Of a stretch of 37,520 nucleotides of DNA, positions 58 through 37,438 are shown piece by piece. Origin of the DNA: Rhodocyclaceae bacterium. Lineage in GTDB: Bacteria; Pseudomonadota; Gammaproteobacteria; Burkholderiales; Rhodocyclaceae. Under the pieces are notes generated by a model. That model worked only from the letters and a program-made list of their open reading frames with translations, searched no databases and had not been told where the DNA came from. Position 1 is the stretch's first letter. Every line of letters begins with the position of its first letter. Position numbers and translations under genes: made by a program. The stretch is from positions 1-37,520 of the forward strand of contig JACDZI010000026.1 of the NCBI GenBank assembly GCA_013426785.1, written 5' to 3'.

Positions 58-81
58 AAAAGTCGGCGCTGGCGGGACGGC
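58..81 (-). repeat. 24-bp dispersed repeat, exact copy, murJ 3' end
   Basis: This is an exact copy of the family consensus, read on the minus strand. It ends one base before the murJ stop codon (83-85), so it begins the murJ 3' untranslated region in the sense orientation. Confidence 0.9.
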
Positions 82-82
82 T

Positions 83-1621
83 TCAGTTCCTGGTTTGCCT
101 GCGAAAATCTCCAGCGCGGAATCCGAGCAGCCAGAGCGTAGCGAAATAGGCTAAGCCGCCGCCGGTCACGAGGGCGGACAGGTGCAGGATGCGGGTTAGC
201 GCCGTCGCGGCCAGCCAATCTGCTTCCCTGCCCATGCCGAACCAGAGGGTCAGACTCAGCACAGCAATGGCAACGCCGATTTTCAGGCCGAACGCCAGCC
301 AGCCCGGCTGTGGCAGATAGGTCTGGCGCTGCCGCAAGCCGCAGAACAACATTGCAGCATTCAGGCAGGAGGCTAGTCCGATTGCCAGGGCCAGTCCGGC
401 GTGCTTGAACGGCACGATGAATATCAGGTTCATGGCTTGTGTTGCGGCGAGGGTTAGCAGGGCGATCCTGACCGGCGTCCTGATGTCCTGGCGGGCATAG
501 AAGCCCGGGGCGAGGACCTTGACGAGAATCAGCCCGATCAGTCCGATGCTGTAGGCGACCAGTGCAGTACGGGTTTGCAGGACATCTTCCACGGTGAATG
601 CGCCGTGCTGGAACAGCGTGGCGATCATGGGTACGGCCAGCAGGGCCAGTCCGACCGCTGCCGGGATTGTCAGCAGGAAGGTCAGTCGCAGTCCCCAGTC
701 GAGCAGGGCCGAGAATTCTTGCGGGTCGCCGTCAGTGTGGGCCTTGGAAAGGCTCGGTAGCAGGATAGTGCCGAGTGCCGCACCGAGTAGTCCGGCGGGA
801 AACTCCATCAGACGATCGGCGTAGTACAGCCAAGAGACGCTGCCGGAAGCCAGAAAGGAGGCGAAGATGGTGTTGATCAGCAGGGAAATCTGGGCGACCG
901 ATACGCCGAGCACGGCTGGTGCCATCAGAGAGAGGACACGGCGCACGCCGGGATCGCCCGGAGCAAAATCGAAGCGCGGCAAGATGCCGATACGCTTCAA
1001 AGCAGGTAACTGAATCGCAAGTTGCAGGATGCCACCGAGAAATACCGCCCAGGCCAGCGCGAGGACCGGTGGATCGAAGTAGGGTGCCGCGAACAGCGCC
1101 ATGCCAATGAAGGAGAGGTTCAGCAATACCGGGGTGAAGGCGGGCAGGGCGAAGCGGCTCCAGGTATTGAGGATGCCGGCGGCCAGGGCCACGAGCGCCA
1201 TGAACAGGATGTAGGGGAAGGTGATGCGGGTGAGCGTGACCGTCAGGGCGAATTTGTCGGCGTCGGCCGCAAAGCCGGGAGCGGAGACATACACCAGTAG
1301 CGGCGCCCCGATGATGCCCAAGGCGGCGATCAGTAGCACTACCAGGAACAACGCAGTGGCGACCCGATCGACCAGTCGGCGTGTCTCGGCTGCTTCGCGC
1401 TGATTGCGGTATTCAGCCAGCAATGGAACGAAGGCCTGCGAAAAAGCACCCTCGGCAAACATGCGGCGCAACAGATTGGGCAGGCGGAAGGCGACGAAAA
1501 AGGCATCGGTAAGCATGCCGGCGCCAAAAGCGCGGGCGATGACGAAATCGCGAACAAAACCCAGAATGCGGGAAAGGAGCGTCAGGCTGCTGACGGTGGC
1601 CAACGTGCGAAGCAGGTTCAT
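83..1621 (-). CDS. murJ: Lipid II flippase MurJ (MviN)
   Basis: This is a polytopic inner-membrane protein of the MOP superfamily that flips lipid II to the periplasmic face for peptidoglycan synthesis. The N-terminus [18 protein letters not shown], followed by GFVRD, is the family signature, and about 14 hydrophobic segments fill the 512 residues, the usual length. I chose the ATG at 1621; an in-frame TTG at 1654 would add 11 residues that do not look like the family. It is divergent from rpsT, a common betaproteobacterial arrangement. No second gene follows in the window; a 24-bp repeat and a hairpin lie immediately downstream. The function is essential in most bacteria, so this copy is presumably active; all family features look intact. 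Confidence 0.96.
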
Positions 1622-1680
1622 GTTGCGATGGTAATGGTTTGCAAGTCTTGCCAAGACGAGAAAAACGCATGAAAAGCACC

Positions 1681-1709
1681 TTGCAAACCCGGGCGGGTCT
1701 GCTTATAAT
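1681..1709 (+). promoter_or_regulatory. Sigma-70 promoter of rpsT
   Basis: TTGCAA (1681-1686) and a perfect TATAAT (1704-1709) are separated by 17 bp. The predicted start lies about 30 bases upstream of the rpsT ATG. This is the best consensus promoter in the window, as expected for a ribosomal protein gene. Confidence 0.85.
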
Positions 1710-1744
1710 CCGCGCCTCTTTAATGATCCATTGCTAAACAAGAC

Positions 1745-2005: not shown

Positions 2006-2025
2006 ATCGCGTCCCGAACAAACGG

Positions 2026-2064
2026 CGGCCCGCCACCCTCATCGGTGTCGGGCCGTTTCATTTT
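2026..2064 (+). terminator. Intrinsic terminator of rpsT
   Basis: CGGCCCG (2026-2032) pairs with CGGGCCG (2049-2055), and an inner CACC/GGTG pairing extends the stem. TTTCATTTT follows. The hairpin overlaps the stop codon of the convergent DUF3579 gene (2058-2060), so it may act on both transcripts, though the minus-strand T-tract is weak. Confidence 0.85.
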
Positions 2065-2788: not shown

Positions 2789-2803
2789 GAGCCGCCTGGT
2801 TTC

Positions 2804-7675: not shown

Positions 7676-8170
7676 ATGTCTTCTTTTGACATTACTTCCG
7701 AAGCCGATCTCGTCGCACTCAAGAACGCCGTCGATGTCGCCGGCCGCCACATTGGCAACCGCTACGATTTCAAGGGCTCCAGCGCCAAGGCCGAACTGAA
7801 CGAGAAGGACAAGCTCATCACGATCTGGGGCGACTCGGAATTCCAACTGGGGCAGATCAAGGACATCCTCTTCCCCGAGATGGAGAAGAAGGAACGCGAA
7901 AGCACCAAGCGGCTCGATGCCGGCGACGTGCAGACCATTTCGGGCAACAAGGCCAAGCAGGAACTCAAGATCAAGAGCGGCATCGAGCAGGAACTGGCAA
8001 AGAAGATCGTCAAGCTGGTCAAGGACAGCAAGATCAAGGTGCAGGCCAGCATCCAGGGCGATGCGGTGCGCGTGGCCGGTGCCAAGCGCGATGACCTACA
8101 GGCCGCGATCGCGCTGGTCAAGAAGACCATCACCGATTACCCGCTGGAGTATGGCAACTTCAGGGACTGA
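7676..8170 (+). CDS. yajQ: YajQ family nucleotide-binding protein
   Basis: UPF0234/YajQ proteins are small two-domain ferredoxin-like proteins that bind nucleotides; a Xanthomonas member is a cyclic-di-GMP effector. The N-terminus SSFDITSEADLVALKNAVD, the segment NRYDFKGSS and the KKIVKLVKDSKIKVQASIQG region are diagnostic. At 164 residues it is full length. It is the last gene of the argD-yajQ run, 13 bp after ppnP. A 24-bp repeat follows 14 bp beyond its stop. Whether this copy binds cyclic-di-GMP cannot be told from sequence. Confidence 0.94.
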   Translation: MSSFDITSEADLVALKNAVDVAGRHIGNRYDFKGSSAKAELNEKDKLITIWGDSEFQLGQIKDILFPEMEKKERESTKRLDAGDVQTISGNKAKQELKIKSGIEQELAKKIVKLVKDSKIKVQASIQGDAVRVAGAKRDDLQAAIALVKKTITDYPLEYGNFRD

Positions 8171-8184: not shown

Positions 8185-8208
8185 GCCGTCCCGCCAGCGC
8201 CGCCTTTT
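8185..8208 (+). repeat. 24-bp dispersed repeat, one mismatch, between convergent genes
   Basis: One substitution (A to C at position 19 of the unit) separates this copy from consensus. It fills the gap between the convergent yajQ and GATase genes, and its terminal TTTT overlaps the minus-strand stop codon (8207-8209). Confidence 0.88.
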
Positions 8209-8902
8209 ACTGGAGGCCGGCGATCCAGCGCGTGTAAAGCCGGTCGGCGGCCACGCGCATCGCCGTTAGGCGGGCGTCGACGTTCTCCATCATCTGCTCC
8301 GGCGTGAGTACGGACGAGCTCGGATTGGCGCACTCGTCGGCCCACTGGCGGCACCACAGGCGGATCATGGCTTCGGTCATCTCGACGTGGCATTGCATGC
8401 CAAGATGCGGGCCGAGGACGAAAGCCTGGTTTTCGCACCAGGCGCTTTTCAGGATGCGCGTCGCGCCGATCGGGACCGAAAAGGTTTCGCCGTGCCAGTG
8501 GAAGGCGTCGAAGGCGGAGATATCGCCCAGCCAGTCTTGCGCTGCCGCGTCGGTGGTTTCGACCCGGCCCCAGCCGATTTCCTTGACCGGGTTCTTCGTG
8601 ACACTGCCGCCAAGCGCCTTGCTCATGAGTTGGCCGCCAAGGCAGTGGCCAATGATGGGAATGTCGGCGCTGACGGCACGGCGGATCAATTCGAACAGGG
8701 GCGGCAGCCAGGGCAGGTCGTCATTGACGCTCATCGGCCCGCCCATGAAACACAAGCCTGCGAATGGCTGCAGCGTGTCTGGCAGAGGTTCGCCGGCATC
8801 GATGCGGATCAGTTCCCGGGAAATGCCGTGGGCTTCGAGGAAAGTGGCAAAATAGCCGGGACCTTCTCCGGGACTGTGACGAAAGATGGCAACTGGTTTC
8901 AT
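8207..8902 (-). CDS. Class I glutamine amidotransferase-like protein
   Basis: The 231-residue protein has the GATase1 fold: oxyanion region CFMGGPMSVNDD (51-62), nucleophile elbow GHCLGGQL with Cys87, and the His-x-Glu element in QCHVEMTEA. Stand-alone members are annotated as GMP-synthase-like or gamma-glutamyl hydrolase-like, and the substrate is not predictable. The ATG at 8902 gives MKPVAIFRHSPGEGPG, a typical start for this group; a longer open frame reading back to 9199 would run into the divergent protease gene. Its start codon overlaps that of the divergent gene (CATG, 8900-8903). No adjacent synthetase suggests a partner. Confidence 0.88.
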   Translation of the reverse strand: MKPVAIFRHSPGEGPGYFATFLEAHGISRELIRIDAGEPLPDTLQPFAGLCFMGGPMSVNDDLPWLPPLFELIRRAVSADIPIIGHCLGGQLMSKALGGSVTKNPVKEIGWGRVETTDAAAQDWLGDISAFDAFHWHGETFSVPIGATRILKSAWCENQAFVLGPHLGMQCHVEMTEAMIRLWCRQWADECANPSSSVLTPEQMMENVDARLTAMRVAADRLYTRWIAGLQ

Positions 8903-9554
8903 GTGCAAGAAAAAGAGAGTCCGATTGGCGCATTGTATCGTCTGCCTACTGGCCTGCTGGGGAACGAATGTGGTTGCCACAGATGTCGTGCTGGTCGGTT
9001 TATTGCCCGGCAGGGCGCTGGTCGTGGTCGATGGCGGTAACCGGCAGATGGTCAAGGTCGGCGAAAAGACGACTGAAGGAGTGAAACTGGTTTCGAATAA
9101 GCCAGGTGCCGCTGTTTTTGAGGTCGAGGGCAAGCAGCGGCGCTTGCAGATCGGCCAGAGCATCGTTTCTTCCGCCGCTGCCGAAAAACCCGCTACCACC
9201 CTGACGGCCGATGCGCAGGGCCATTATCTGGCCCAAGGCAGTATCAATGGTGCGTCGATGCGCTTTCTCGTCGATACCGGGGCGACCTTCATTTCCCTGG
9301 GGGCGGCCGATGCAAAGCGTGCCCATATCGATCCGTTGAAGGGCATACCGGGCATATCAATGACGGCAAACGGTCCGGCGCGCGTCTGGAAGGTCAAACT
9401 TTCGAGTGTGAAGCTTGGCGGCATCTCGCTATCCGATGTCGATGCGACGGTGCATGAGAAGGATATGCCGGTCGTCCTGCTCGGCATGAGCTTCCTCAAC
9501 CGCATGGACATTCGCCGCGACGGCATGTCGATGACCCTGACGCAACGTTATTGA
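8901..9554 (+). CDS. Periplasmic retropepsin-like aspartic protease (clan AA)
   Basis: A signal peptide is visible: basic MCKKKRVR, then a hydrophobic stretch to about residue 26. The active-site motif RFLVDTGATFISLG (Asp125) and the later VVLLGMSFLNRM are those of the clan AA family (TIGR02281 type), single-domain retropepsin-like proteins that act as dimers. Length is 217 residues from the ATG at 8901; an ATG five codons earlier (8886) has a closer purine-rich GAAAG and is possible. The natural substrate is unknown. It is followed 18 bp later by a Nudix gene. Confidence 0.83.
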   Translation: MCKKKRVRLAHCIVCLLACWGTNVVATDVVLVGLLPGRALVVVDGGNRQMVKVGEKTTEGVKLVSNKPGAAVFEVEGKQRRLQIGQSIVSSAAAEKPATTLTADAQGHYLAQGSINGASMRFLVDTGATFISLGAADAKRAHIDPLKGIPGISMTANGPARVWKVKLSSVKLGGISLSDVDATVHEKDMPVVLLGMSFLNRMDIRRDGMSMTLTQRY

Positions 9555-14925: not shown

Positions 14926-14982
14926 GGTCCATTGCGGCCGACCCGGCCCTGCCTTTTCAACTCGCCTCGAGCGAGCATCCCC

Positions 14983-16974
14983 ATGACAAAAACGATCGAC
15001 AGCTTTGCGGCGCTCAAGCTGCCCGCCCCGCTCCTGTCCTCCCTCATTGAGGTTGGCTACGAAACTCCGTCGCCCATCCAGGCGGCCTGCATCCCCCTGT
15101 TCCTGGCCGGGCGCGATCTGCTTGGCGAGGCGCAGACCGGTACCGGCAAGACGGCGGCCTTTGCCCTGCCACTGCTGGCACGGCTCGATCTGGCCAAGAA
15201 GGTTCCGCAGGCGCTGGTGTTGACGCCGACGCGCGAACTGGCGATCCAGGTCGCCGAGGCCTTCCAGAAATACGCCCATAACATGCCCGGCTTTCATGTG
15301 CTGCCGGTCTATGGTGGCCAGAGCATGGTGATCCAGCTGCGCGCGCTGTCGCGCGGAGCTCACATCATCGTCGGCACGCCCGGCCGCATCATGGATCACC
15401 TCGAACGCAAGAGCCTCAACCTCGACGGCCTGCAGACGCTGGTGCTCGACGAGGCTGATGAAATGCTGCGCATGGGCTTCATCGACGATGTCGAGTGGAT
15501 TCTCGAACACACCCCGGCAGCGCGCCAGACGGCGCTGTTCTCGGCGACCATGCCCGATCCGATCCGCCGCATTGCCCAACGCTATCTGCGTGATCCGCAG
15601 GAGGTGAAGATTCGTTCGGCGACGACGACGGTGGCCGCCATCAAGCAGCGTTACTGGCAGGTGCGCGGTGCCGACAAGCTCGAAGCGCTGACGCGCATGC
15701 TCGAGGTGGAAGAAGATTTCGAAGCCGCCCTGATTTTTGTGCGCACCAAGACGGCGACCATCGACCTGGCGGAAAAACTCGAAGCACGCGGCTACGAAGC
15801 GGCGGCGCTGAACGGCGACATGACGCAGGGCCTTCGCGAGCAGGTGGTCGAACGCCTGAAGAGCGGCAGCCTCGACATCGTCGTCGCCACCGACGTGGCG
15901 GCGCGCGGCCTTGACGTGCCGCGCATTTCGCACGTCATCAACTACGACGTGCCCTACGATACCGAAGCCTACGTGCACCGCATCGGTCGCACTGGGCGGG
16001 CCGGGCGGGTCGGCAGTGCCATCCTGTTCGTCGCGCCTCGCGAGATGCGTATGCTCAAGGCCATCGAACGCGCCACACGCCAGCCGATCGAACCGATTAA
16101 CCTGCCGACGCGCGGCGAGGTGGCCGAACGCCGCATCGCGCAATTCCGCCAGCAGATCCTTGACGTACTGGCCGAGGAAAACCTCGACTTCTTTTACGAG
16201 GTAGTGCGGCGCATGGAAAGCGAGGAAAACCTCGCCACGCGCCAGATCGCCACCGCGCTGGCCTTCTTGGCCCAGCGCGAACGGCCGCTGCGCCCCGATG
16301 GCGTCGAAATGCCGGCATCGATGATGCGCGAGGAACCGGTCAAGGCCGCACCACCCGTAGCACGCGCTATTCCATCTGCAACTGCCGTCCTGCCAGTGCC
16401 GACTTTTCAGGCCGCCGAGCGCAAGCCGCGCGAAGAAGCGCCGGTGGTCAGGGAACGTAAGGAGCGTCCCGCACCGCGTGATTTCGGCAATGCGCCGCTG
16501 GTGCGTTATCGCATCGAGGTGGGCAAGAACCAGGGCGCGATGCCCAAGGAAATCGTCGGCGCCATCGCCAACGAAGGTGCCATCGACGGCAAGCTGATCG
16601 GCCAGATCAACCTGTTCGACGACTACAGCACGGTCGAGTTGCCCGAGCTGCCGTCCGAATTGATCGACATCCTACGGCGCACGCGCGTCAAGCAGTTGCC
16701 GCTGAAAATCCGCCCGGCCGCACCCGGCGAAGGCGACAAGCCGAGCTTCAGCAAATCGACGCCGCGCAAGTCATACGATAAGTCCGAGCGCCGTCCCCGC
16801 GCGGACGATGCAGCACGCCCGGCTCGATCGGACCGTCCTGCCAGCGCCGACTTTTCCAAGCGGCCACCCTATCGGGATGACAAAAAGCCGGCTTTTGGCA
16901 AGCCCACCGGTGGAAAACCCGCATTTGGCAAACCCGCCTTCAGCAAACCGGCCGGGAAGCCCCGGCCACGCTGA
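14983..16974 (+). CDS. deaD: DEAD-box ATP-dependent RNA helicase (DeaD/CsdA type)
   Basis: The 663-residue protein has the Q motif, AQTGTGKT (50-57), DEAD (156-159), SAT, ARGLDVPRISHVINYDVP and HRIGRTGRAGR, then a DbpA-type RNA-binding domain (about 505-575, YRIEVGKNQGAMPKEIVGAI) and a basic tail with repeated KPAFGKP units. DeaD proteins remodel RNA in ribosome assembly and mRNA decay, especially in the cold. The start at 14983 fits the family; an upstream GTG-type extension is not needed. Two copies of the 24-bp repeat lie in frame in the linkers on either side of the RNA-binding domain, encoding residues 468-475 and 618-624. It converges on lpxH. Confidence 0.95.
   Translation: MTKTIDSFAALKLPAPLLSSLIEVGYETPSPIQAACIPLFLAGRDLLGEAQTGTGKTAAFALPLLARLDLAKKVPQALVLTPTRELAIQVAEAFQKYAHNMPGFHVLPVYGGQSMVIQLRALSRGAHIIVGTPGRIMDHLERKSLNLDGLQTLVLDEADEMLRMGFIDDVEWILEHTPAARQTALFSATMPDPIRRIAQRYLRDPQEVKIRSATTTVAAIKQRYWQVRGADKLEALTRMLEVEEDFEAALIFVRTKTATIDLAEKLEARGYEAAALNGDMTQGLREQVVERLKSGSLDIVVATDVAARGLDVPRISHVINYDVPYDTEAYVHRIGRTGRAGRVGSAILFVAPREMRMLKAIERATRQPIEPINLPTRGEVAERRIAQFRQQILDVLAEENLDFFYEVVRRMESEENLATRQIATALAFLAQRERPLRPDGVEMPASMMREEPVKAAPPVARAIPSATAVLPVPTFQAAERKPREEAPVVRERKERPAPRDFGNAPLVRYRIEVGKNQGAMPKEIVGAIANEGAIDGKLIGQINLFDDYSTVELPELPSELIDILRRTRVKQLPLKIRPAAPGEGDKPSFSKSTPRKSYDKSERRPRADDAARPARSDRPASADFSKRPPYRDDKKPAFGKPTGGKPAFGKPAFSKPAGKPRPR
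16384..16407 (+). repeat. 24-bp dispersed repeat inside deaD, two mismatches
   Basis: It encodes AVLPVPTF, residues 468-475, in the low-complexity linker before the RNA-binding domain. Both differences from consensus are C-to-T transitions. Confidence 0.82.
16832..16855 (+). repeat. 24-bp dispersed repeat inside deaD, two mismatches
   Basis: It is read in another frame, giving RPASADF at residues 618-624 of the basic tail. Two transitions separate it from consensus. Confidence 0.82.
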
Positions 16975-17731: not shown

Positions 17732-18222
17732 CAGATGACCTCGGCCTTCTCGATCACCACGTCTTCGGTGGGCACGTCCTGATGGAAACCCTTGTTGCCG
17801 GTTCTGACGCCCTTGATCTTGTCGACGACATCCATGCCTTCAACGACGCGCGCGAACACGCAGTAGCCCCAGCCTTGGCCTGACGGCGCACTATGGTTGA
17901 GAAAGTCGTTATCAGCAACATTGATGAAGAACTGCGCCGTGGCTGAGTGCGGCTCGGAGGTGCGCGCCATGGCGACGGTGCCGCGATCATTTTTCAGGCC
18001 ATTGGCGGCCTCGTTCTCGATCGACTTTTGCATGCTTTTTTCCTTCATGCCGACGCCCATGCCACCACCCTGGATCATGAAGCCATCGATGACGCGGTGG
18101 AAGATCGTGCCATCGTAGTGGCCGGACTCGACATAGGCAAGAAAGTTGGCGGCCGTCTTCGGCGCCTTTTCGCTTTCGAGTTCGAGGGTGATGACGCCGT
18201 GGTTGGTGGTGAGCTTGATCAT
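17731..18222 (-). CDS. ppiB: Cytoplasmic cyclophilin-type peptidyl-prolyl isomerase
   Basis: Without a signal peptide, this 163-residue cyclophilin should act in the cytoplasm, isomerising X-Pro bonds. Active-site segments are [34 protein letters not shown] and the [19 protein letters not shown] region. It shows strong similarity over its whole length to the upstream exported cyclophilin, pointing to a tandem duplication. ATGA overlaps join it to the upstream gene, and its stop overlaps the lpxH start. Confidence 0.95.
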
Positions 18223-18826: not shown

Positions 18827-20017
18827 TCAGGCGGCGTCTTCGGAGACGATTTTCCAGCGGCCGCCATCCTTGATCCAGTACTGGCGCTTCTGCATCCGGT
18901 TCGACAGATTGCTGCTCAGGTAATCCTGCTCGAAGGTAACGACCACGTAGTCGTCCTTGCCCGGATTGCGGAACATGCTGATATTGTTGGTGGCGACCTT
19001 GATCCACTGCTTGCCGGCGTTGACCTTTTTCTTTTGGGCGAGCCAGGCGTCCAGATCCTTGCCGTCGCTCTTGAAGTCGCGCGCATAGTGGCTAGCGTAG
19101 CGCTCGAGGTCGAGGCTTTCCCAGTCGCGGCGCCATTCGTCAATCATCGTCAGCAGCGACTGGCGTTCCGTCTGCCAGTCGTCGAGCGATAGCCACTCGA
19201 TACTGTTGCTGATGATGACCGGCGTGGAGCCAATCTGCAGATTCTTCGCCAGCGCATCAAGGTCGGTATTGGCGAGCACGACGCAGCCATCGGAGGCCTT
19301 GGGCGGGCGCGAAAAGGTGTCGGAGGGCGTGCCATGCAGCCAGATGCCGTGGCCCTTGCGCCCCATCTTCTTGTCCCACTCGTTGGGATAATTGAGCGGA
19401 TAGGCACCGTTCCCATAGAGGTCCGGAAGCTTCTGGCGCGGCAGGCTGGAGGTGACGTGATAGACACCGATGGGCGTTTTCTTGTCGCCTTCGGTCAGCT
19501 TTTCGACGCCAAGCTTGCCGTGCGAGATGTAGTAATCGGCGACAAAGCGCGGCGTGCCATTATCGTTCTGGTAGAGATAGAGACGGGCTTTCTGCGTATC
19601 GACGACCACGGCGTGCTTCTGGTCGGACCGCAACTGCACCAGGTAGCGGGGTACCTGGCTTTCCGTCGGCTTGTTCTTGTAAGCCCGCAGGCGGGCGATG
19701 GCTTCTTCGCGCAGGTCGGCAACCTGTTCCTCGGCGACTCTGGGGCCACCCTGCCCGAAGCGCTGCAACGGGCGGGTGCGCGCCAGCAGCAGGTCGCCCT
19801 TGATCAGGTGGCCGAGGCGGAACTTCGGGTAGGCCTTGACGAGCGCCTCGGTTTCATTGAGCGCTGCTTCCCACTGGTTTTGCTCGATCTGTTCGAAGAC
19901 ATGCGCCAGCAGCGGCTCGGGACCGGAGTCGGTGTAGCGTACGGGCACATCGGCAAAGGCTCCGGCAGCGAAAAGGGTGCAGGCTGCCAGCCCGCTCAGA
20001 AACTTGCGTGCTGTCAT
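18827..20017 (-). CDS. Periplasmic L,D-transpeptidase, Cds6-like
   Basis: This 396-residue exported enzyme has an N-terminal signal (cleavage near AFA-DV), a helical repeat-like region to about 120, a YkuD catalytic domain (about 124-275) and a C-terminal NTF2-like domain. The YkuD motif is HGIWLHGT with His228, followed by SDGCVVLAN with nucleophile Cys245. Such enzymes make 3-3 peptidoglycan cross-links, attach lipoproteins or cleave them; the exact reaction cannot be told. The C-terminal domain ([19 protein letters not shown] onward) resembles that of the neighbouring TPR protein. The ATG at 20017 overlaps that gene's stop codon. Confidence 0.9.
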
Positions 20018-21057
20018 CCCCCGACCCGTTCTTGCTGGATCAGCCATTTGCCGTCACGCTTGACCAGCACGAGCGTCTTGCCGGAGGACGTCGATAGGCT
20101 GGCTGACTTGTAGTGCTGACGAAAGCGCACGACCACCTTATCGTCACCTTCTGCCTTGATGGCCAGTTTGTCGCGGCTGACCTCGATCTTGCCTGGCTTG
20201 CCGACGCGCTGGGTGCGCTCGTTTTCCCATTCCTTGCGACTTTGGTCTTTCGGCGGGTCGAAATCCTTGGCATACACCGCCAGGTAACCCTTGACGTCCT
20301 TTTTCGACCAGGCGCTCAACCAGCCATCGATGGCAGCAGCGATCTCGATGCTGGCATCGACGGGTTTGGCGGGTTCGGCCGGCTTGACTGTCGCGACGAC
20401 AATGGGGGTGGGCGGCGTTGGCGCAGGGGCCGCCGGTTGGACGGTGGGCGTTTTGCTGGCGGCGACAATCGGGGTCGGTGCCGTCCCGCCAACGCCGACT
20501 TTTCCTGTGCCGACCAGATCGCTGATCATGGCCAGCTTGGTCTGCGCCGACTCATTGGTCGAATCGATCTGCAGGGCCTTGCCGTAGGCCTGGCTGGCCA
20601 GTCGCGAGTAGATGTCGCCGAGATTTTCGTGCGCCGTGGCGTAGGCCGGATGGGTGCGGATCGCCATTTCCAGCGCTTCCTTGGCCTTGTCGTACTGTTT
20701 CTGTTGTGCGTAGATCACCGCCAGGTTGTTGTAAGGTTCGGGCAACTCGGGATAGTCCTCGGTGAGCTTCCTGAACACGGCGATGGCCTCGCCTTGCTTG
20801 TTCATGCCGGTGAGGATGATGCCCTTGAGAAAACGCCCCTGTGCATCCTTGGGCTTGTCGGCGAGATAGCGGTCAACCTGATCGAGCGCCTTGGCATACT
20901 GGCCTGATTTGATCGAGTGGCTGACATCCTCGATATTGTTCGCCCAGGCAGCAGGGGCAGCACCAAAAATTGTGCAACCGCTGACCAGCAAGACGAGGCG
21001 AACAGGCGCACCCAGGCGCGGCATGAAAGCAGTCGAGAAAGTGGGGAAAATTGGCAT
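20014..21057 (-). CDS. Exported TPR protein with C-terminal NTF2-like (Cds6-type) domain
   Basis: A signal peptide (hydrophobic core LVLLVSGCTIFGAAPAAWA, residues 21-39) is followed by about three TPR units (45-175), a Pro/Ala/Thr linker (185-240) and an NTF2-like domain (about 245-347; IDGWLSAWSKKDVKGYLAVY). The same kind of C-terminal domain ends the downstream L,D-transpeptidase, and the genes overlap by 4 bp, so the two products probably act together at the cell wall. A 24-bp repeat encodes KVGVGGT (186-192) at the start of the linker. Start: ATG at 21057, with an ATG at 21024 equally possible (12 residues shorter). An open frame reaching back to 21852 runs antisense through cysS and is not real. 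Confidence 0.85.
   Translation of the reverse strand: MPIFPTFSTAFMPRLGAPVRLVLLVSGCTIFGAAPAAWANNIEDVSHSIKSGQYAKALDQVDRYLADKPKDAQGRFLKGIILTGMNKQGEAIAVFRKLTEDYPELPEPYNNLAVIYAQQKQYDKAKEALEMAIRTHPAYATAHENLGDIYSRLASQAYGKALQIDSTNESAQTKLAMISDLVGTGKVGVGGTAPTPIVAASKTPTVQPAAPAPTPPTPIVVATVKPAEPAKPVDASIEIAAAIDGWLSAWSKKDVKGYLAVYAKDFDPPKDQSRKEWENERTQRVGKPGKIEVSRDKLAIKAEGDDKVVVRFRQHYKSASLSTSSGKTLVLVKRDGKWLIQQERVGG
20480..20503 (+). repeat. 24-bp dispersed repeat inside the TPR gene, one mismatch
   Basis: It lies antisense to the minus-strand TPR gene and encodes KVGVGGT (residues 186-192). One substitution from consensus changes Ala to Val in the peptide. Confidence 0.85.
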
Positions 21058-21198
21058 GCTGTGCTGGTTTTGACAGAAAGTTTCAACGTATGATTCTAAC
21101 AAAGAAGCCCTTTCCGGCGCTCCTGCGGGGGTTGGAGTAAAGCCCCAATACGCGTCTTTTCCTTCCCTTTTTCGGTCCCGTTTCGCTTGTCTGTAGCC

Positions 21199-22578
21199 AT
21201 GCTGAAAATTTACAACTCGCTTACCCGTTCCGTCCAGGACTTCATTCCCATCGAACCCGGCAAGGTTCGGCTCTACGTCTGCGGCATGACGGTCTACGAT
21301 TTCTGTCATCTGGGTCATGGCCGCGTCATGGTGGTGTTCGACATGGTGACACGCTGGTTGCGGGCAAGCGGCTACCACGTTATCTATGTGCGCAATATCA
21401 CCGATATCGACGACAAGATCATCAAACGGGCGGCCGAAAACGGCGAAACGGTGCGTGCCCTGACCGACCGATTTATCGGGTTCATGCACGAGGATTCCGC
21501 TGCATTGGGGGTGCTGCCGCCCGATCACGAACCGCGCGCCACCGAATTCGTGCCGCAGATGCTTGACCTGATCGGCAGGCTGGAGCAGAACGGCTACGCC
21601 TATCTGGCCGGCAACCATGACGTTTGCTACTCGGTACGCAGGTTCTCCGGTTACGGCAAGCTCTCGGGTAAGGCGCTCGAAGATCTGCGGGCCGGCGAGC
21701 GCGTCGATGTCATGGAAGGCAAGCAGGACCCTCTCGACTTCGTGCTCTGGAAACACGCCAAGCCGGAAGAGTCGGCCGAGGTGAAGTGGGAGTCTGCCTG
21801 GGGCAGCGGACGCCCCGGTTGGCACATCGAATGCTCGGCGATGAGTTCGCAACTACTGGGCGAACACTTCGACATCCATGGCGGCGGGCAGGATCTACAG
21901 TTTCCGCATCACGAAAACGAGATCGCCCAGTCAGAAGGGGCGCACGGCAAGACTTTCGTCAATTACTGGATGCACAACGGCTTCGTGCGCGTCGATGACG
22001 AGAAGATGTCGAAGTCGCTCGGCAACTTCTTCACCCTCCGCGAAATCCTCAAGAAATACGATGCCGAGGTGGTGCGCTTCTTCATCCTGCGCGCCCATTA
22101 CCGCAGTCCCTTGAACTACTCCGACGGCCATCTCGACGATGCACGTGCCGCGCTGACGCGGCTCTACACCGCACTGAAGGGCTTCGCTGTGCAGTCTGTG
22201 GTCGACTGGGACGAAGCCTATGCCTGCCGCTTCCGCAACGCGATGGACGACGATTTCGCCACCCCGGAAGCCGTGGCGGTACTGTTCGACATCGCCAACG
22301 ACCTGAACCGCAGCAAGGATGCCAAACTGGCCGCGCAACTCAAGGGTCTGGCGGGCGTGTTGGGCTTGTTGCAGCGCGATCCGGTCGAGTTTCTGCAGGC
22401 GGGTCCGGCTGACGCTGCCGGCTTGAGAACTACCGAGATCGATAAAAAAGTCGGCGCTCGCAACATGGCGAAAAAGGCGAAGAACTTCGCTGAGGCCGAC
22501 CGCATCCGCGACGAACTCAAGGCAGCGGGTATCGTGCTCGAAGACGGCCCGCAGGGGACGACTTGGCGGCGGGGATAA
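21199..22578 (+). CDS. cysS: Cysteinyl-tRNA synthetase
   Basis: This class I synthetase charges tRNA-Cys. The zinc and substrate region [17 protein letters not shown] carries a HIGH-type [12 protein letters not shown] holds further zinc ligands and [10 protein letters not shown] is the KMSKS loop. The 459 residues are full length. The ATG at 21199 gives the expected MLKIYNS start; a TTG four codons earlier is unlikely. It is divergent from the TPR/L,D-transpeptidase operon. Near the 3' end, 22446-22458 matches half of the 24-bp repeat, and a full exact copy begins inside the stop codon. Confidence 0.97.
22446..22458 (-). repeat. Half copy of the 24-bp repeat in cysS
   Basis: AAAAGTCGGCGCT matches the first 13 bases of the reverse-strand unit exactly, then diverges. 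It encodes the DKKVGARN segment of CysRS. Confidence 0.4.
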
Positions 22579-22600
22579 AAGTCGGCGCTGGCGGGACGGC
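22577..22600 (-). repeat. 24-bp dispersed repeat, exact copy, at the cysS stop codon
   Basis: This exact copy begins at the second base of the cysS TAA (22576-22578), so the first two A residues of the repeat complete the stop codon. Confidence 0.9.
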
Positions 22601-22862: not shown

Positions 22863-23834
22863 TCATTGCCGTGCCTTGAGCGCCTGCGCGAACTGGAACA
22901 CCGCCATCGCGTAGAAACTGCTGCGGTTGTAGCGGGTGATGACGTAGAAGTTCCGGTAGCCGAGCCAGTATTCGATTGGCGCATCCGGTGTCACCAGATC
23001 AATCAGCGCGGCCGGGGCATCGGGCGCGTTGGCCGGAATCTCGATGCCGAATGCAGCCATCTCCGCAGGAAAACGCACCGGCTTGATGCCTTCGGAAATC
23101 AGTGATTCGGTTACCGTCCCGCCAGCGCCGACTTTTACCGCGACGGGTCCGCCGTTTTCCCAGCCGTGTTCCTTGAGGAAATTGGCGACGCTGCCGATGG
23201 CATCGGCCGGGCTGCGGGTCAGGTCGATATGACCATTCCTGTCGAAATCGACGGCATAGGCGCGGATGCTTGAGGGCAAAAACTGCGGCAGGCCGATCGC
23301 CCCGGCGTAGGAACTGCGATAGCTGTCGGGCGCACGCTGTTCATCACGGGCGAGCAGCAGCAAGGCTTCCAGTTCGCGGCGGAATAGCTCGGCGCGCGGC
23401 GGATAGTCGAAGGCCAGCGTGGCCAGGGCCGCGAAGGTGTCGAAGCGGCCGAGGTACCTGCCGTAGAAGGTCTCGATGCCGATGATGGCAACGATAATTT
23501 CGGCCGGCACGCCGAAGAGGGCTTGCGCCTTCGCTAGCGTTGCCTTGTGCTTGCGCCAGAACTCGAGTCCGGCGGCGATGCGCCGCGGTTCGATGAAACG
23601 CTGGCGGTAGATTTGCCAGGAGCGGATACCCGGATCGGTAGGCGGGGCGATGGCTTTCAGCACCAAGGGGATCGACTGCGTCTGATCGAACAGCGCGGTG
23701 AGGTGTGCGTCATCGAAGCCGTGGCGCGCCTGCATCTCGGCGATGAAAGCCTGAACGTCCTCCCTCGCGGCGTAATCGCTGGCGTGGGCGGTCAGGGAGA
23801 ATAGTAGGGCGAGCAAGGCAAGGAGGCGGTTCAT
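22863..23834 (-). CDS. mltB: Lytic murein transglycosylase B
   Basis: MltB cleaves the MurNAc-GlcNAc bond of peptidoglycan with formation of 1,6-anhydro ends. The catalytic Glu121 lies in GIETFYGRYLGRFDTFAALA, and SSYAGAIGLPQFLPSS is a second family block. A cleavable signal (MNRLLALLALLFSLTAHA) is present without a lipobox, so the 323-residue product should be soluble in the periplasm. A 24-bp repeat encodes KVGAGGT (234-240) in a surface loop after HGWENGGPVAV. It overlaps the tgpA stop by 4 bp and is the last gene of its operon. Confidence 0.93.
   Translation of the reverse strand: MNRLLALLALLFSLTAHASDYAAREDVQAFIAEMQARHGFDDAHLTALFDQTQSIPLVLKAIAPPTDPGIRSWQIYRQRFIEPRRIAAGLEFWRKHKATLAKAQALFGVPAEIIVAIIGIETFYGRYLGRFDTFAALATLAFDYPPRAELFRRELEALLLLARDEQRAPDSYRSSYAGAIGLPQFLPSSIRAYAVDFDRNGHIDLTRSPADAIGSVANFLKEHGWENGGPVAVKVGAGGTVTESLISEGIKPVRFPAEMAAFGIEIPANAPDAPAALIDLVTPDAPIEYWLGYRNFYVITRYNRSSFYAMAVFQFAQALKARQ
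23113..23136 (+). repeat. 24-bp dispersed repeat inside mltB, one mismatch
   Basis: It lies antisense to mltB and encodes KVGAGGT. Only the first base differs from consensus (A for G). Confidence 0.86.
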
Positions 23835-25786: not shown

Positions 25787-26750
25787 ACAGGGCAAGTGCC
25801 TTCAGGCTGGTGTGCAGGTGGTCGGGGCCATGCGCCTGGGCGATTTCGCTTCCCGGCAGGCGCAAGCCCCAGGCCAGTCCATCGGCTTCCGCATCGAGTA
25901 CCCAGCGGGCAAGTATCGACAAGCGGGTTTCGGCATCCATCCGTGGCGGCAGTGCATCCCAATCGAGCCACAGCGCCTGGGTGGCCGTACCGGCGAACTG
26001 CTTGGTCTGCAACGGGGCATCCGGCCCCTGGCGCGCCGCAGTTTTCCAGGCGACATGATGGGGTGGATCGCTCGGCTGGTGGCGACGCAGGCCGGCGAAA
26101 TCCTCGTCGCCGGTATCGCTGGACAGACGGCCGCCCTTCAGGTCGCCAAAAGTCGGCACTGGCGGGACGGCACTGGCGGGTTTGGGATAGATCAGGCAGG
26201 ACAGCGCCGGGGCCGTGTAGCTCCAGGTGCGGATCAGGCCGAGCGGCCAGACGGTCTCAATGGTGGCGCGCGGCATGGCCAGCCAGCCGCGTCGGGGTGC
26301 CCGCTGTGGGAGCAGCACGCGCGTGCTGCCCCTGGCCGGGATGTCGCTGCTCATGACGGCCTGGTCGGGCAGGGCGACCCGAAGCAGGCGGCGTGGGCGT
26401 GCGTCCGGGTTGTGCAGAATCAGGGGAAAGCGGGCAATGTCGCCCGCAAACACCGGCGCTGCGGCGCCGACGGTGATAGCAAGGCCCACCAGATTGCGGA
26501 AGGTATGCAGGATGGCGGTGACGCCCAATCCGGTCAGCAGGAAGACCAGCGCATAGCCAAGACTGAGGTTGTAGTTGATCGCGCCGATCAGCATGACGAT
26601 CAGCGAAACGGCGTAGAGCAGGCCGGCGCGGCTGGGCAGGATATAGACGCGCCGCTGGGAGAGCAGTACCGGCACGGGTTCGGGCGGGCGGGTACGCAGT
26701 GCCCAAGTGGCGAAGCGCTCGTTGAGCTTGCGGCGCAGCGCCTGCAGCAT
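25776..26750 (-). CDS. DUF58 domain protein
   Basis: This 324-residue protein has two N-terminal membrane helices (about 42-80) and a C-terminal DUF58 region with DEDFAGLRRHQPSDPPHHVA followed by WKTAARQG. DUF58 proteins partner MoxR AAA ATPases and transglutaminases, possibly as a vWA-like client-binding protein. A 24-bp repeat encodes AVPPVPTF (194-201) in the linker just before the DUF58 motif. It starts 2 bp after moxR and overlaps tgpA by 11 bp, so the genes are surely cotranscribed. Confidence 0.9.
   Translation of the reverse strand: MLQALRRKLNERFATWALRTRPPEPVPVLLSQRRVYILPSRAGLLYAVSLIVMLIGAINYNLSLGYALVFLLTGLGVTAILHTFRNLVGLAITVGAAAPVFAGDIARFPLILHNPDARPRRLLRVALPDQAVMSSDIPARGSTRVLLPQRAPRRGWLAMPRATIETVWPLGLIRTWSYTAPALSCLIYPKPASAVPPVPTFGDLKGGRLSSDTGDEDFAGLRRHQPSDPPHHVAWKTAARQGPDAPLQTKQFAGTATQALWLDWDALPPRMDAETRLSILARWVLDAEADGLAWGLRLPGSEIAQAHGPDHLHTSLKALALYGQ
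26148..26171 (-). repeat. 24-bp dispersed repeat inside the DUF58 gene, one mismatch
   Basis: It is in the sense orientation and encodes AVPPVPTF. The single change is a transition in the core. A second ACTGGCGGG (26172-26180) follows directly, a partial tandem echo of the unit. Confidence 0.85.
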
Positions 26751-31818: not shown

Positions 31819-32583
31819 GTGATCCGCTTTGCTTCTTTGGGCAGTGGCAGCAGGGGTAACGCCTTGCTGGTCGAGTCCGGCCGTACCCGTTTGCTGGTAG
31901 ATTGCGGTTTCGGTCCGCGCGAAGTGGCGTTGCGCTTGGCACGTGCCGGGGTCGAGCCCGAGTCCATAAATGCTGTTCTGGTGACCCATGAACATGCCGA
32001 CCACGTGGGTGGCGCAGCCAGTTGCGCGTCCCGCTTTGGCTGGAAGGTGCATGCCAGTCACGGTACGGCTGCGGCTGCCGGGCAACTGGCGGAGATGGCC
32101 GTGCGGCGCTTCGACAGCCATGCTCCGTTTGCCATTGGCGACCTCGAAGTGCATCCCTATCCGGTGCCGCACGATGCGCGCGAGCCGACGCAATTCGTGT
32201 TTTCCGATGGTGCCACCCGACTGGGGGTACTGACGGATGCCGGTACGGTCACGCCGCACATCGAGGCGATGCTGGCCGTCTGCATGGCGCTGGTGCTGGA
32301 ATGCAACCACGATGCTGACCTGCTGATGACAGGACGCTACCCGCCCTCGCTCAAGCAGCGCATCGCCGGCCAGTTCGGCCATCTTGATAACGGCATGGCG
32401 GCTGAACTGCTGCGCCGGATTGCCGGCGGGCATTTGCAGCATGTCGTTGCCGCCCATCTTTCCGAAGAAAACAATACGCCCGAACTGGCGCGTACTGCGC
32501 TGGCTACCGCCCTGGACTGCCAGCCGGAGTGGATCGGCATTGCCGATCAGGCGATGGGTTTCGACTGGCGGGAAATCAGGTAA
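31819..32583 (+). CDS. MBL-fold metallo-hydrolase (YycJ/WalJ-like)
   Basis: The metallo-beta-lactamase signature [10 protein letters not shown] is present, with later metal ligands in [14 protein letters not shown] and LECNHD. The 254-residue protein starts [20 protein letters not shown], typical of the YycJ-like group of cytosolic hydrolases. The start is a GTG at 31819, whose TGA-overlap (GTGA) joins it to a remnant sequence ending IYELLK. In related genomes, as I recall, this gene follows bamC directly. It is followed 5 bp later by rlmD. The substrate is unknown; nuclease activity has been reported for related proteins. Confidence 0.88.
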
Positions 32584-32588
32584 GACCC

Positions 32589-33893
32589 ATGAATATCGCA
32601 ACGATTGAATCACTGGATCACGAAGGGCGCGGCGTCGCGCATGTCGAGGGCAAGGCCATCTTCATCGAGGGCGCATTGCCGGGCGAACAGGTGAGCTACA
32701 CCTCGTTTCGCCGCAAGCCCAGCTTCGAGAATGCGCGCGCCGATGCCATCCTCAAGGCATCCAGTCAGCGCGTGACGCCGCATTGCCCGCACTTCGGTGT
32801 TTGCGGTGGTTGCAGCATGCAGCATCTTGATCCGGTAGCGCAGGTAGCCGCCAAACAACGCGTGCTGGAGGATGCCTTCTGGCACATCGCGCGGATCAAG
32901 CCGGAGACGATCCTGCCCCCGATCATTGGCCCGGCCTGGGGTTACCGCCGCCGCGCCCGGTTGTCGGTACGCAAGATCGACAAGAAGGGTGGGGTACTGG
33001 TTGGTTTTCGCGAAAAGCGCAGCAGCTACGTGGCGGTGATGGATTCCTGCGCCGTCCTGCCAGCGCCGATTTCTGCCTTGCTCCGGAAGTTGGGCGAACT
33101 GGTTGGATCTCTGTCGATTCCTGATCGTGTGCCGCAGATCGAGGTAGCGGCGGGCGATACCCCGACAGCGCTGGTGTTGCGCATCCTCGAACCGCTGACG
33201 GGCGCGGATGAAGGCTTAGTGCGCGCATTCGCCGATTTGCATGGCGTGGTGATCTACCTGCAAACCGGTGGGCCCGATACTGCCACGCTGTTCCATCCGC
33301 CTGACGCACTGCAACCGGCCTATGAGTTGCCGGATTTCGGTGTCACCCTGCGGTTCCGGCCCACCGACTTCACCCAGGTGAATCACGACCTCAACCGCGT
33401 GCTGGTGCGGCGCGCCCTCGGTCTGCTTGATGTGCGGGCCGGCGAGCGCGTGGCCGACATGTTCTGTGGCTTGGGAAATTTCACCCTGCCGCTGGCGCGT
33501 TCGGGTGCGCATGTCGTCGGCGTCGAAGGCAGTGCGCCGCTGATCTCGCGCGCGAAGGAAAATGCTGCGGCGAACGGTCTGGCGGAGCGGATCGACTACT
33601 GCGTTGCTAACCTGTTCACGGTCACGCCGGAACAGTTGACCATCTGGGCCGGCCGGGGCCGCTTCGACAAGATGCTGATCGACCCGCCCCGCGAGGGGGC
33701 CGTCGAACTCGTCAAGTCGCTCGGCGCGAATGGCCCGGCGCGCATCGTCTATGTCTCATGCAGCCCGGCCACACTGGCACGCGATGCCGCCGTGCTGGTG
33801 CATGAGCAAGGCTATCGACTCGTCGCGGCCGGCATCGCCAACATGTTTCCGCACACCTCGCACGTCGAGTCGATCGCCCTGTTCCAGAAATGA
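32589..33893 (+). CDS. rlmD: 23S rRNA (uracil-1939-C5)-methyltransferase RlmD
   Basis: RlmD methylates U1939 of 23S rRNA using S-adenosylmethionine. A TRAM domain (1-55) is followed by [4Fe-4S] ligands Cys66, Cys72, Cys75 and Cys154, a SAM-binding region ([16 protein letters not shown]) and the catalytic [12 protein letters not shown]. The start at 32589 gives 434 residues; an upstream extension overlaps the MBL gene. A degenerate copy of the 24-bp repeat directly follows the Cys154 codon. A terminator hairpin and an exact repeat copy follow the stop. Confidence 0.95.
33051..33074 (+). repeat. Degenerate 24-bp repeat-like sequence in rlmD
   Basis: Three mismatches separate it from consensus. 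It encodes AVLPAPIS (155-162), starting right after the fourth Fe-S cysteine. The family normally has Cys-x-Val-Leu here, so the match may be partly coincidental. Confidence 0.45.
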
Positions 33894-33919: not shown

Positions 33920-33943
33920 GCCGTCCCGCCAGCGCCGACTTTT
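33920..33943 (+). repeat. 24-bp dispersed repeat, exact copy, between convergent genes
   Basis: This exact copy begins directly after the rlmD terminator and ends at the base before the stop codon (33944-33946) of the minus-strand BI-1 gene. Confidence 0.92.
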
Positions 33944-34633: not shown

Positions 34634-34744
34634 GTTTTCCCTTTCTTTGTCAAACAAGGTAAGACTGAGACTAGCGGAACCTGGTGAAAGTTTCAATCGT
34701 CACGGCTGTGGAAATATAGGCGAACCGTGCGGTTTCAAGCCGGG

Positions 34745-36568
34745 TTATTCAGCGGTTTCCTCGCGGCTGGCGCGTTTTCTTTCGTGCGGATTCAGGTAAC
34801 GCTTGCGCAGGCGGATCGATTTGGGCGTGATTTCGACCAGTTCGTCGTCGGCGATGAATTCGACGGCGCTTTCCAGCGTCAGCTGGATCGGCGGCACCAG
34901 CCGCACGGCCTCGTCGGTGCCGGAAGCGCGCACGTTGGTGAGCTGCTTGCCCTTGATCGGGTTGACCACCAGATCGTTGTCGCGGCTGTGGATGCCGATG
35001 ATCATGCCTTCGTACAACATGTCGCCCGGGCTGACGAACATGCGGCCGCGGTCTTGCAACTTCCACAGGGCGTAAGCGACGGCGGGGCCGTCTTCGGCGG
35101 ACACCAGCACGCCGTTGCGGCGCTCGGCCATCACGCCCGACCAGGGGCCGTATTCGTCGAAGACGTGGCTGGCAAGGCCGGTGCCGCGCGTCAGGGTGAG
35201 GAATTCGCCCTGGAAGCCGATCAGGCCGCGCGCCGGAATGCGGTATTCAAGGCGGACGCGACCGCGTCCGTCCGGCTGCATGTCCTGCAACTCGCCCTTG
35301 CGACGCCCGAGTTCCTCCATCACGCCGCCCTGGTGGCCTTCCTCCACGTCCACAGTGAGCATTTCGTAGGGTTCCTGCTTGCTGCCGTCGGCCAGTTCAT
35401 GCACGACAACGCGCGGCCGGCCGACCGCCATTTCGTAGCCTTCGCGGCGCATGTTTTCCAGCAGGATGGTCAGGTGCAGTTCGCCGCGCCCGGAAACCTC
35501 GAAGATGTCGGCGTTCTCGGTTTCGGCGACGCGCAGCGCCACGTTGGAGAGCAGTTCCTTGTTGAGGCGCTCGCGAATCTGGCGGCTGGTGACGAACTTG
35601 CCTTCCTTGCCGGCCAGCGGCGAGGTGTTGACCTGGAAGTTGATCGTCAGCGTCGGCTCGTCCACGCTGATCGGCGTCATGCCGACCGGGTTGGCGACAT
35701 CGCACAGCGTCACGCCGATGCCGACCTGTTCGATACCCGAAACTAGGACGATGTCGCCGGCCTCGGCGTCGAGGGCCGCCTGGCGTTCGAGCCCCTGGAA
35801 AGTCAGTACCTGCCCCACTTTTGCCGTACCGCGCGCCTCGTCGCCGTACATCACGGCAACCTGCTGGCCCGGCTTGATGTGGCCCTTCTTGATGCGGCCG
35901 ATGCCGATGCGGCCGACATACGAGTTGTAGTCGAGCGAGCAGATCTGAAGTTGCAGCGGAGCTTCGGCGTCGACGTCGGGCGGTGGCACATGCTTGAGAA
36001 TCGCCTCGTACAGTGGGCGCATGTCGGTGCCGGGCGTGTGCGAGGCCAGCATGGCGTAGCCATTCAGCGCCGAAGCGTACACGACCGGAAAATCGAGTTG
36101 TTCCTCGGTAGCACCCAGTTTGTCGAACAGTTCGAAGGTATGGTCGATCACCCAGTCGGGCCGAGCGCCCGGCCGGTCGATCTTGTTGATCACGACGATG
36201 GGCTTGAGGCCCAGCGCGAGAGCCTTCTTGGTGACGAAACGCGTCTGCGGCATCGGGCCTTCGACGGCATCCACCAGCAGCAGCACGCCATCGACCATCG
36301 ACAGGACGCGCTCCACTTCGCCGCCGAAGTCGGCGTGGCCCGGTGTATCGACGATGTTGATGTGTGTACCCTCGAAGTCGATCGCGCAGTTCTTGGCGAG
36401 GATGGTGATGCCGCGCTCCTTCTCGATGTCGTTCGAGTCCATCACCCGTTCGATCACCTGCTGGTTTTCGCGGAAAGTGCCGGACTGGCGCAGCAGTTGG
36501 TCGACGAGGGTGGTCTTGCCATGATCGACGTGGGCGATAATGGCGATGTTGCGAAGGAGACGAGACAT
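34745..36568 (-). CDS. typA: Ribosome-associated GTPase TypA/BipA
   Basis: BipA is a translational GTPase resembling EF-G that aids 50S assembly at low temperature and stress responses. The G domain has AHVDHGKTT (12-20), [21 protein letters not shown] and [16 protein letters not shown]-like domains III and V and a BipA-specific C-terminal domain follow. Length is 607, normal. Large open frames antisense to it are artefacts of its high GC codon usage. A TAGAAT element on the minus strand (36611-36616) may be its -10. A weak AACC/GGTT hairpin lies just beyond its stop (about 34722-34736). Confidence 0.97.
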
Positions 36569-36662
36569 CGGGTGGGGGTGCGCGGAGCGCGGCTTGGGGA
36601 AAGGGCCGGCATTCTAGCAGAGCGCCCGGTTTGGCACGGATGGATGCGAAGGAGGCACAGGA

Positions 36663-37409
36663 ATGTTGGCAATCATCGGGGGCAGTGGGCTGACGCAGTT
36701 GGCCAGTCTGGAGGTCGCCCGCCGTCAGGTCGTGCGCACGCCTTATGGCGAACCTTCGGGCACGCTCAGTTTTGGTCGCATCGGGTCGCAGGACGTTGTT
36801 TTTCTGGCGCGTCATGGCCACGGCCATACGATTCCGCCGCACCGGGTCAATTACCGGGCCAACCTGTGGGCGCTGGTCAACGGAGCCGGGGCCACCGAAA
36901 TCATCTCGGTCGCTTCGGTGGGGGCGATTCGCGCCGATCTGGCGCCTGGCACACTGGTGGTGCCGCACCAGATCATCGACACCACCTGGGGGCGGCCGGC
37001 CACCTTCTTCGATGGTGGTGAAGCTGCCGTGGTGCATGTCGATTTCACCGTACCCTACGACAGCAGCCTGCGCGAACGCCTGCTGTGCGCGGGCGACCAG
37101 GCGGGGCTCCGGCTGGCCGGGCGGGCCGTTTATGCGGCGACCCAGGGACCCCGGCTGGAAACTGCGGCAGAAATCGACCGGCTGGAACGCGATGGCGCAG
37201 ACATCGTCGGCATGACAGGCATGCCGGAGGCGGCGCTGGCGCGCGAACTGGCAACGCCCTATGCGGCACTTTGCGTGGTGGCAAATTGGGCCGCCGGGCG
37301 GGGCGATTCGACCGTTTCAATTCAACTGGATCGGATTGAGCCGGTACTGCAAACGGCCATGGGCCAAGTGCGTACCCTCATCGGGGATTTCTGCGCGGCC
37401 GATGGTTGA
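36663..37409 (+). CDS. mtnP: S-methyl-5'-thioinosine/thioadenosine phosphorylase
   Basis: This 248-residue member of the MTAP/PNP family phosphorolyses methylthio-nucleosides in methionine salvage. IIGGSGL, ARHGHGHTIPPHRVNYRAN and DIVGMTGMPEAALARELATP are family blocks. The MTGMPEAALARE segment and short length resemble the bacterial methylthioinosine phosphorylase described in Pseudomonas, but the substrate (MTI or MTA) is not certain from sequence. AGGAG-like GGAGG precedes the ATG. It is divergent from typA, and an exact 24-bp repeat follows its stop by 5 bp. Confidence 0.9.
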   Translation: MLAIIGGSGLTQLASLEVARRQVVRTPYGEPSGTLSFGRIGSQDVVFLARHGHGHTIPPHRVNYRANLWALVNGAGATEIISVASVGAIRADLAPGTLVVPHQIIDTTWGRPATFFDGGEAAVVHVDFTVPYDSSLRERLLCAGDQAGLRLAGRAVYAATQGPRLETAAEIDRLERDGADIVGMTGMPEAALARELATPYAALCVVANWAAGRGDSTVSIQLDRIEPVLQTAMGQVRTLIGDFCAADG

Positions 37410-37414
37410 ATACC

Positions 37415-37438
37415 GCCGTCCCGCCAGCGCCGACTTTT
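37415..37438 (+). repeat. 24-bp dispersed repeat, exact copy, between convergent genes
   Basis: This exact copy lies between the mtnP stop (37407-37409) and the stop (37446-37448) of a minus-strand reading frame that enters from the right edge. Confidence 0.92.

Follow-up and report, generated by a model that had tools for sequence, protein, structure and literature searches.

A GC-rich sequence of 25 nt, YGCCGTCCYGCCAGCGCCGACTTTT, is dispersed in hundreds of copies through the genome of a bacterium of the Rhodocyclaceae, a betaproteobacterial family, and is probably a DNA uptake sequence of that family. It would then represent a third, longer family of uptake signals. The repeat was met in a window of 37,520 nucleotides (the whole stretch of DNA that was analysed, from contig JACDZI010000026.1 of assembly GCA_013426785.1), which is contig C10 of the genome here called G000 (3.24 Mb, 241 contigs). 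The first-pass annotation, made from the letters of the window, had listed eleven copies of a 24-bp unit and held them to be beyond chance. All eleven are present, four exact and seven with one to three mismatches, eight on the plus and three on the minus strand, and 100 dinucleotide shuffles yielded no match. A twelfth copy, with four mismatches, lies at 8659..8682 (minus strand), and a more degenerate member of the family (79% identical) is found at 22446..22469.

Motif shape, abundance and dialects

The aligned copies define a motif with sharp edges, in which nearly all of the 24 inner positions carry more than 1 bit while the flanks are flat. The 24-bp unit is real, and its best form is a 25-mer that includes a preceding pyrimidine. 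It had also been described as non-palindromic, unlike repetitive extragenic palindromic (REP) elements, and this is borne out: the motif holds no inverted repeat and its single strand folds no better than shuffles (DNA parameters). The window has no match in Rfam at gathering score. In 335 kb, copies with 0 to 5 mismatches number 27, 31, 15, 15, 5 and 2, and five more places have 6; the best places for the reversed motif, used as control, start at 7. The complete G000 genome has 343 forward and 363 reverse copies with up to three mismatches, or 706 (585 with up to two), and no match to the reversed motif at three mismatches. The number falls short of the thousand or so extrapolated from the window and lies well above the few dozen below which a genome-wide role had been called doubtful.

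The distribution of the exact core CCAGCGYCGACTTT over 297 genomes of the family is bimodal, with at least 30 copies in 38 genomes and 12 or fewer in 259, and the reversed core is found 0–2 times per genome and strand. The motif is abundant in 7 of the 68 genera sampled (in one of them as a dialect) and nearly absent from the others; both the 38 genomes and the seven genera are hand counts from the table of cores. Rich genomes are 11 of 12 in the genus of the window, 11 of 12 in g2, 4 of 4 in g46, 9 of 9 in g64 and the sole sampled members of g9, g38 and g45. The relatives G126, G080 and G019 have 218–703 copies. At up to three mismatches the 24-mer matches in 61 of 150 genomes of the family, many with only a handful of copies. 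Elsewhere in the order, 12 of 291 genomes carry 1–4 copies (up to two mismatches, hand count), and a degenerate form of the motif was found in none of 119 genomes, G000 apart, of a phylum-wide sample. The titles among the matches listed by an exact scan of public genomes are chiefly Rhodocyclaceae, with Sulfuritalea, Sulfurisoma, Propionivibrio and Azonexus, and include Thiobacillus, Rubrivivax, Casimicrobiaceae and records labelled Gammaproteobacteria. In viral contigs the exact 20-mer occurs in 44 stretches.

The motif varies between genera. Positions 6–7 are open in most of the other motif-rich genomes sampled, giving YGCCGTNNCGCCAGCGCCGACTTTT, a rough form derived from 2–19 cores per genome. 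G045 carries a dialect, the T form CCAGCGTCGACTTTT, which emerged de novo as the 12-mers with the strongest over-representation (11 copies in 100 kb). G016, with 11 cores that are mostly of the T form among the matches listed, may be a weak second carrier. Two single members of motif-rich genera, G522 and G533, are nearly free of the motif (1 and 5 cores) and have an intact comEC. A hidden dialect was sought in G522 (about 0.14 Mb) and G533 (about 0.15 Mb), and no spread-out candidate was found, the top 12-mer of G533 being a local repeat on two contigs. The same search in 107 kb of G042 and 80 kb of G018 gave no clear dialect, with some 10-mers of G042 moderately enriched.

The few copies in motif-poor genomes are often clustered, with 2–5 near-perfect copies together (five stretches read, L143, L144, L146 and L147 among them). 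Ten proteins from four such clusters were scanned; they include primase-like, restriction-modification and AAA/RNA-ligase proteins, and four are unmatched. Some clusters adjoin genes of mobile or defence type, and they suggest import of DNA from motif-rich donors. Another repeat was met in two of the motif-rich relatives, G126 (L163, L164 and L216 pooled) and G019 (L167 and L168 pooled). It is common to both, rich in ATTGTAGCTATC and GAGGGAGCTACA, present in 14–15 copies in each pool, and resembles an array of clustered regularly interspaced short palindromic repeats (CRISPR).

Origin and placement of the copies

The comparison covered those regions of relatives that correspond by orthology to a portion of the window and to a second stretch of 20 kb. 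The flanks of each copy were aligned without the site, and a pair was termed tight when both flanks reach to within 30 bp of it. Both flanks were found in the same relative for 41 of 65 copies, yielding 208 pairs of which 70, derived from 28 copies, are tight (a site common to several genomes contributes repeatedly to such pair counts). Exactly 24 bases are enclosed in the relative in 47 of the 70 tight pairs, involving 20 of the 28 copies, and none of the 70 comes within 6 of zero. When counted per genome, 24 bases are enclosed in 48 of 73 pairs: 20 of these are still copies, 14 have 5–9 mismatches and 14 have at least 10, the relative carrying unrelated sequence. Alignments that span the site have a gap of at least 12 in 2 of 149 cases, neither of them a clean 24-bp insertion, and smaller gaps in 65; 29 of the 65 copies have no spanning alignment and 24 have no two-sided flank match. 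Such a match was obtained for 10 of 11 coding and 2 of 6 non-coding copies of G000 (n=17), so that evidence for origin in place comes chiefly from coding sites. Judged from these alignments, substitution in place is the main, though not the sole, way in which sites differ.

The exception is found in a transglycosylase gene, where G038, G045 and G001 (L182 2496, L179 9193 and L175) carry the motif within a stretch of about 8–10 residues that is missing in G000, G126, G080, G019, G046 and G062 and partial in G042. The motif letters read KVGAGGT in G038, KVDAGET in G045 and GVGAGDT in G001. This site looks like a length change, whether by gain or by loss, and it provides 11 of the 13 looser pairs, among the 208, that come within 6 of zero.

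Placement was surveyed in 728 kb of G000 at up to four mismatches (n=185), with gene calls from a simple script. The copies are within genes in 109 cases, between genes in 64 and straddling in 12. Outside genes they are about five times as dense as inside (76 per 89,172 placements vs 109 per 638,641 in coding sequence), and copies between genes are closer to the consensus (mean of 1.1 mismatches vs 1.5 in coding copies). Of the 76 non-coding copies, 52 are no more than 40 bp from a gene 3' end, vs 28% expected. There is no preferred orientation within genes (55 sense, 54 antisense), and at gene ends 28 copies run along the gene and 24 against it. A strand bias relative to replication, which the first-pass annotation had proposed to look for, is not seen: 97 copies are leading and 88 lagging, as judged by the GC skew of contigs several of which are weakly skewed. 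Copies are spaced more regularly than expected at random, the gaps between them having a coefficient of variation of 0.725 vs 1.00 +/- 0.07 (95% range 0.87–1.15) under uniform placement without coding constraint. Two inverted pairs were met in G000. The first, at C14 13031-13108, consists of two exact copies in facing orientation with 30 bp between them, from which a hairpin could arise; the second, at C68 19799-19880, is inexact and lies within a gene.

Nine stretches longer than 9 kb are free of copies (contents recognised by eye from protein starts). They comprise a 28.6-kb block with ribosomal protein, tuf, fus and rpoBC genes, two with nuo genes and their neighbours, one low-GC surface-polysaccharide region and one probable bacteriochlorophyll region, the remainder having mixed genes. 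By eye, C88 of G000 (about 5.0–17.3 kb) has a run of proteins resembling BchL, BchH, BchB, BchN, chlorophyll synthase and geranylgeranyl reductase, which suggests that the host is phototrophic.

In the window, the four exact copies are at or near gene ends: 58..81 (minus), 1 bp beyond a murJ-like gene (83-1654, minus); 22577..22600 (minus), with a 2-bp overlap with the end of cysS (21187-22578); 33920..33943 (plus), 26 bp beyond an RNA uracil methyltransferase gene (32529-33893); and 37415..37438 (plus), 5 bp beyond a phosphorylase-superfamily gene (36663-37409). The site at 33920 has a copy at the orthologous place in G038 too. The copy at 8185..8208 (plus, one mismatch) lies at the convergent ends of a DUF520 gene (7676-8170) and a GATase-domain gene (8207-9199, minus). 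Within genes, two copies with two mismatches (16384..16407 and 16832..16855, both plus) lie in one DEAD-box helicase gene (14932-16974), and a copy with one mismatch (20480..20503, plus) is antisense in a gene for a TPR protein (20014-21852, minus). The copy at 23113..23136 (plus, one mismatch), antisense in a lytic transglycosylase gene (22863-23834, minus), has counterparts in both G126 and G080, G019 having a near-copy, with small indels close by. That at 26148..26171 (minus, one mismatch), within an open reading frame (ORF) at 25776-26750 (minus), is exact in G126, has two mismatches in G080 and is decayed in G019. The copy at 33051..33074 (plus, three mismatches), inside the methyltransferase gene, is matched by a copy in G126 and by near-copies in G019 and G080, other genera showing plain coding sequence of the same length. 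The degenerate site at 22446..22469 (minus) in cysS has copies in G126 (four mismatches) and G001 (three), the T dialect in G045 and unrelated codons in G046 and G042, all these relatives being free of gaps. Direct repeats of another kind (D2, D3 and D6) occur at 17797-18721, about 503–509 bp apart, across two adjacent minus-strand ORFs that, by eye, resemble paired cyclophilin-type peptidyl-prolyl isomerases.

A putative uptake signal and its alternatives

An origin mainly by point mutation, both orientations, location at weakly constrained sites, even spacing, a dialect and absence from the most conserved genes are predicted by molecular drive through biased DNA uptake, and for these reasons the repeat is regarded as most likely an uptake signal. 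Uptake sequences of Pasteurellaceae and Neisseriaceae are described as arising through point mutations, not through insertions, and as lacking orientation bias (PMC1939737); the same source cites an earlier claim of even spacing and itself finds spacing less even than compaction would need. In the mechanism that we infer (uptake bias, receptor and recombination step alike), the motif would be what a natural transformation system with sequence bias recognises, with no demonstrated descent from the DNA uptake sequence (DUS) of Neisseria or the uptake signal sequence (USS) of Haemophilus. A candidate surface receptor, most likely a minor type IV pilin, would favour free DNA with YGCCGTNNCGCCAGCG(C/T)CGACTTTT; fragments bearing the motif would be imported and then recombined into the chromosome. 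Uptake would spread random mutations that bring a site closer to the motif, and these would build up wherever the protein sequence tolerates them.

The chances are slightly better than even that this is a third, independently evolved uptake language, 25 bp long and partly degenerate, whose candidate receptor would read more than two helical turns and which would mark a community of environmental genera that preferentially exchange genes (six share the motif, one has a dialect). USS and DUS are named for two families, Pasteurellaceae and Neisseriaceae (PMC12616744), and a third case in environmental bacteria, if true, would be an independent replicate where the repeated evolution of such signals rests, in that account, on two. 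Rich and poor genera side by side, together with the dialect, would then bear on why signals arise, what reads them and how gene flow is channelled, and the motif might offer a practical handle for making these bacteria transformable. No earlier description of the repeat was found among the matches listed in open-licence literature on uptake sequences and Rhodocyclaceae, and one may exist elsewhere.

Several observations weigh against an uptake function. All genomes tested encode ComEC (24 of 24 and 11 of 11), whether motif-rich or not, and its presence does not track the motif. Pilins with a PF16732 (ComP_DUS) match are found in 23 of 24 genomes, rich and poor alike, and the dialect carrier G045 has no such match. 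In minor-pilin operons, 22 stretches of which were inspected by eye, no gene follows the presence of the motif. Of the com and pil genes that the first-pass annotation had advised looking for, comEC and minor-pilin genes are present, and none of the genes tested tracks the motif. The near absence of the motif from G522 and G533 despite their intact comEC adds to this, as does its length, greater than that of the DUS (12) or the USS 10-mer. In known uptake systems one orientation is reported as commoner within genes (PMC2346458); the sense/antisense balance (55/54) departs from this bias, a reported trait and not a definition. Only two inverted pairs closer than 250 bp occur among the 185 copies. 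Finally, the length change in the transglycosylase gene makes a mobile element slightly more credible and an uptake signal slightly less so.

One pilin was considered as a receptor. A pilin-like gene of G000 (L149 9321-10058, contig C171; one of 39 N_methyl matches in three genomes) contains a motif copy in its leader region, where it encodes AVPPAPTF directly ahead of the prepilin cleavage motif, and the identical peptide occurs in the G080 relative. The candidate was dropped because the motif-less G522 has a relative too.

The first-pass annotation had offered uptake, a site for a nucleoid or segregation protein and a tiny mobile element as candidates. On the sequence evidence, uptake appears best supported of the three, given the in-place evolution, the dialect, the lack of strand bias, the even spacing and the absence from conserved operons. 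A segregation-type site is disfavoured by the 97 to 88 strand count together with the patchy, dialect-like variation, and the mobile element is poorly supported.

The main rival to an uptake signal, which we consider unlikely yet the most serious, is that an intracellular protein with a nucleoid, segregation, condensation or repair role binds the motif across the genome, the sites being under selection where they stand and the binding specificity drifting between genera. It also predicts substitution in place, dialects and even spacing. Against it stand the absence of leading/lagging bias, the scarcity of the motif in G522 and G533 with no evident replacement in the part sampled, and the lack of copies over the 28.6-kb block of ribosomal and rpoBC genes and most of the nuo region.

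A signal for packaging or export (used, e.g., by gene transfer agents or DNA-secretion systems) would be subject to the same drive, favouring donors over recipients, and such biased transfer would leave identical marks in genomes. Nothing pointing to such a system turned up, no search having been aimed at one, and we hold this explanation to be improbable.

A tiny mobile element, similar to REP or to miniature inverted-repeat transposable elements (MITE) and copying itself to new places, is rated lower still. The sharp edges, the high identity of copies and the transglycosylase site, which resembles gain or loss of a whole unit, would be in line with it. A Y1 transposase, sought in six genomes, has one match each in G000 and G069. 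However, none of the 70 tight pairs shows a clean insertion, 47 of them enclosing exactly 24 bases, and folding of the single strand does not exceed that of shuffles. The first-pass annotation had advised looking for REP-associated tyrosine transposases (RAYT); no Y1/RAYT match was found in G126, G080 and G019 despite their 218–703 copies, nor in the motif-poor G042. Mainly in-place change, indifference to strand, even spacing and preference for non-coding DNA argue against a mobile mini-element, REP/RAYT and an RNA-level element. The latter, a transcription terminator for instance, would account for the 52 of 76 non-coding copies close to gene 3' ends and for the T run at one end of the motif but is the least probable explanation, as 109 of 185 copies are within genes in balanced orientation (55/54), orientation at gene ends is mixed (28 same, 24 opposite), folding does not exceed that of shuffles and Rfam gave no match at gathering score in the window.

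Comparison with known systems

REP elements and bacterial interspersed mosaic elements (BIME), which are associated with RAYT, are small, dispersed and present in many copies. The motif shares these features and differs from them by lacking an inverted repeat and an insertion signature in tight pairs; with no hairpin beyond shuffles and no Y1 gene found in the motif-rich G126, G080 and G019, assignment to this class was rejected. Chi and the FtsK-orienting polar sequences (KOPS) are over-represented, non-palindromic, oriented chromosome signals. The motif is likewise an over-represented non-palindromic word but is much longer and has no leading-strand bias (97 to 88), and an oriented replication signal was discarded on the latter count.

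The USS is given as AAAGTGCGGT (PMC2346458). The motif differs from it in sequence, in being GC-rich and in length (25 nt vs the 10-mer), and resembles the Pasteurellaceae USS, as described in PMC1939737, by its abundance, its evolution by point mutation and the lack of chromosomal orientation bias. The DUS of Neisseriaceae is the 12-mer ATGCCGTCTGAA with its dialects, bound by the minor pilin ComP. In G000 the 24-mer opens with GCCGTC, as does the DUS, a match that may be due to chance. A CTG core at +6 to +8 is reported as common to all DUS dialects (PMC3630211). In the aligned register, after GCCGT, the motif has CC(C/T) or NNC in its place, and because this core is absent the motif is not filed as a DUS dialect. 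It is further unlike the DUS by its 25 nt vs 12 and its balanced sense and antisense copies. What the two share, following the account of the DUS in PMC3630211, are copies in the hundreds or more, a non-palindromic sequence, occurrence in both coding and non-coding DNA, dialects that differ between genera and the existence of family members without the motif.

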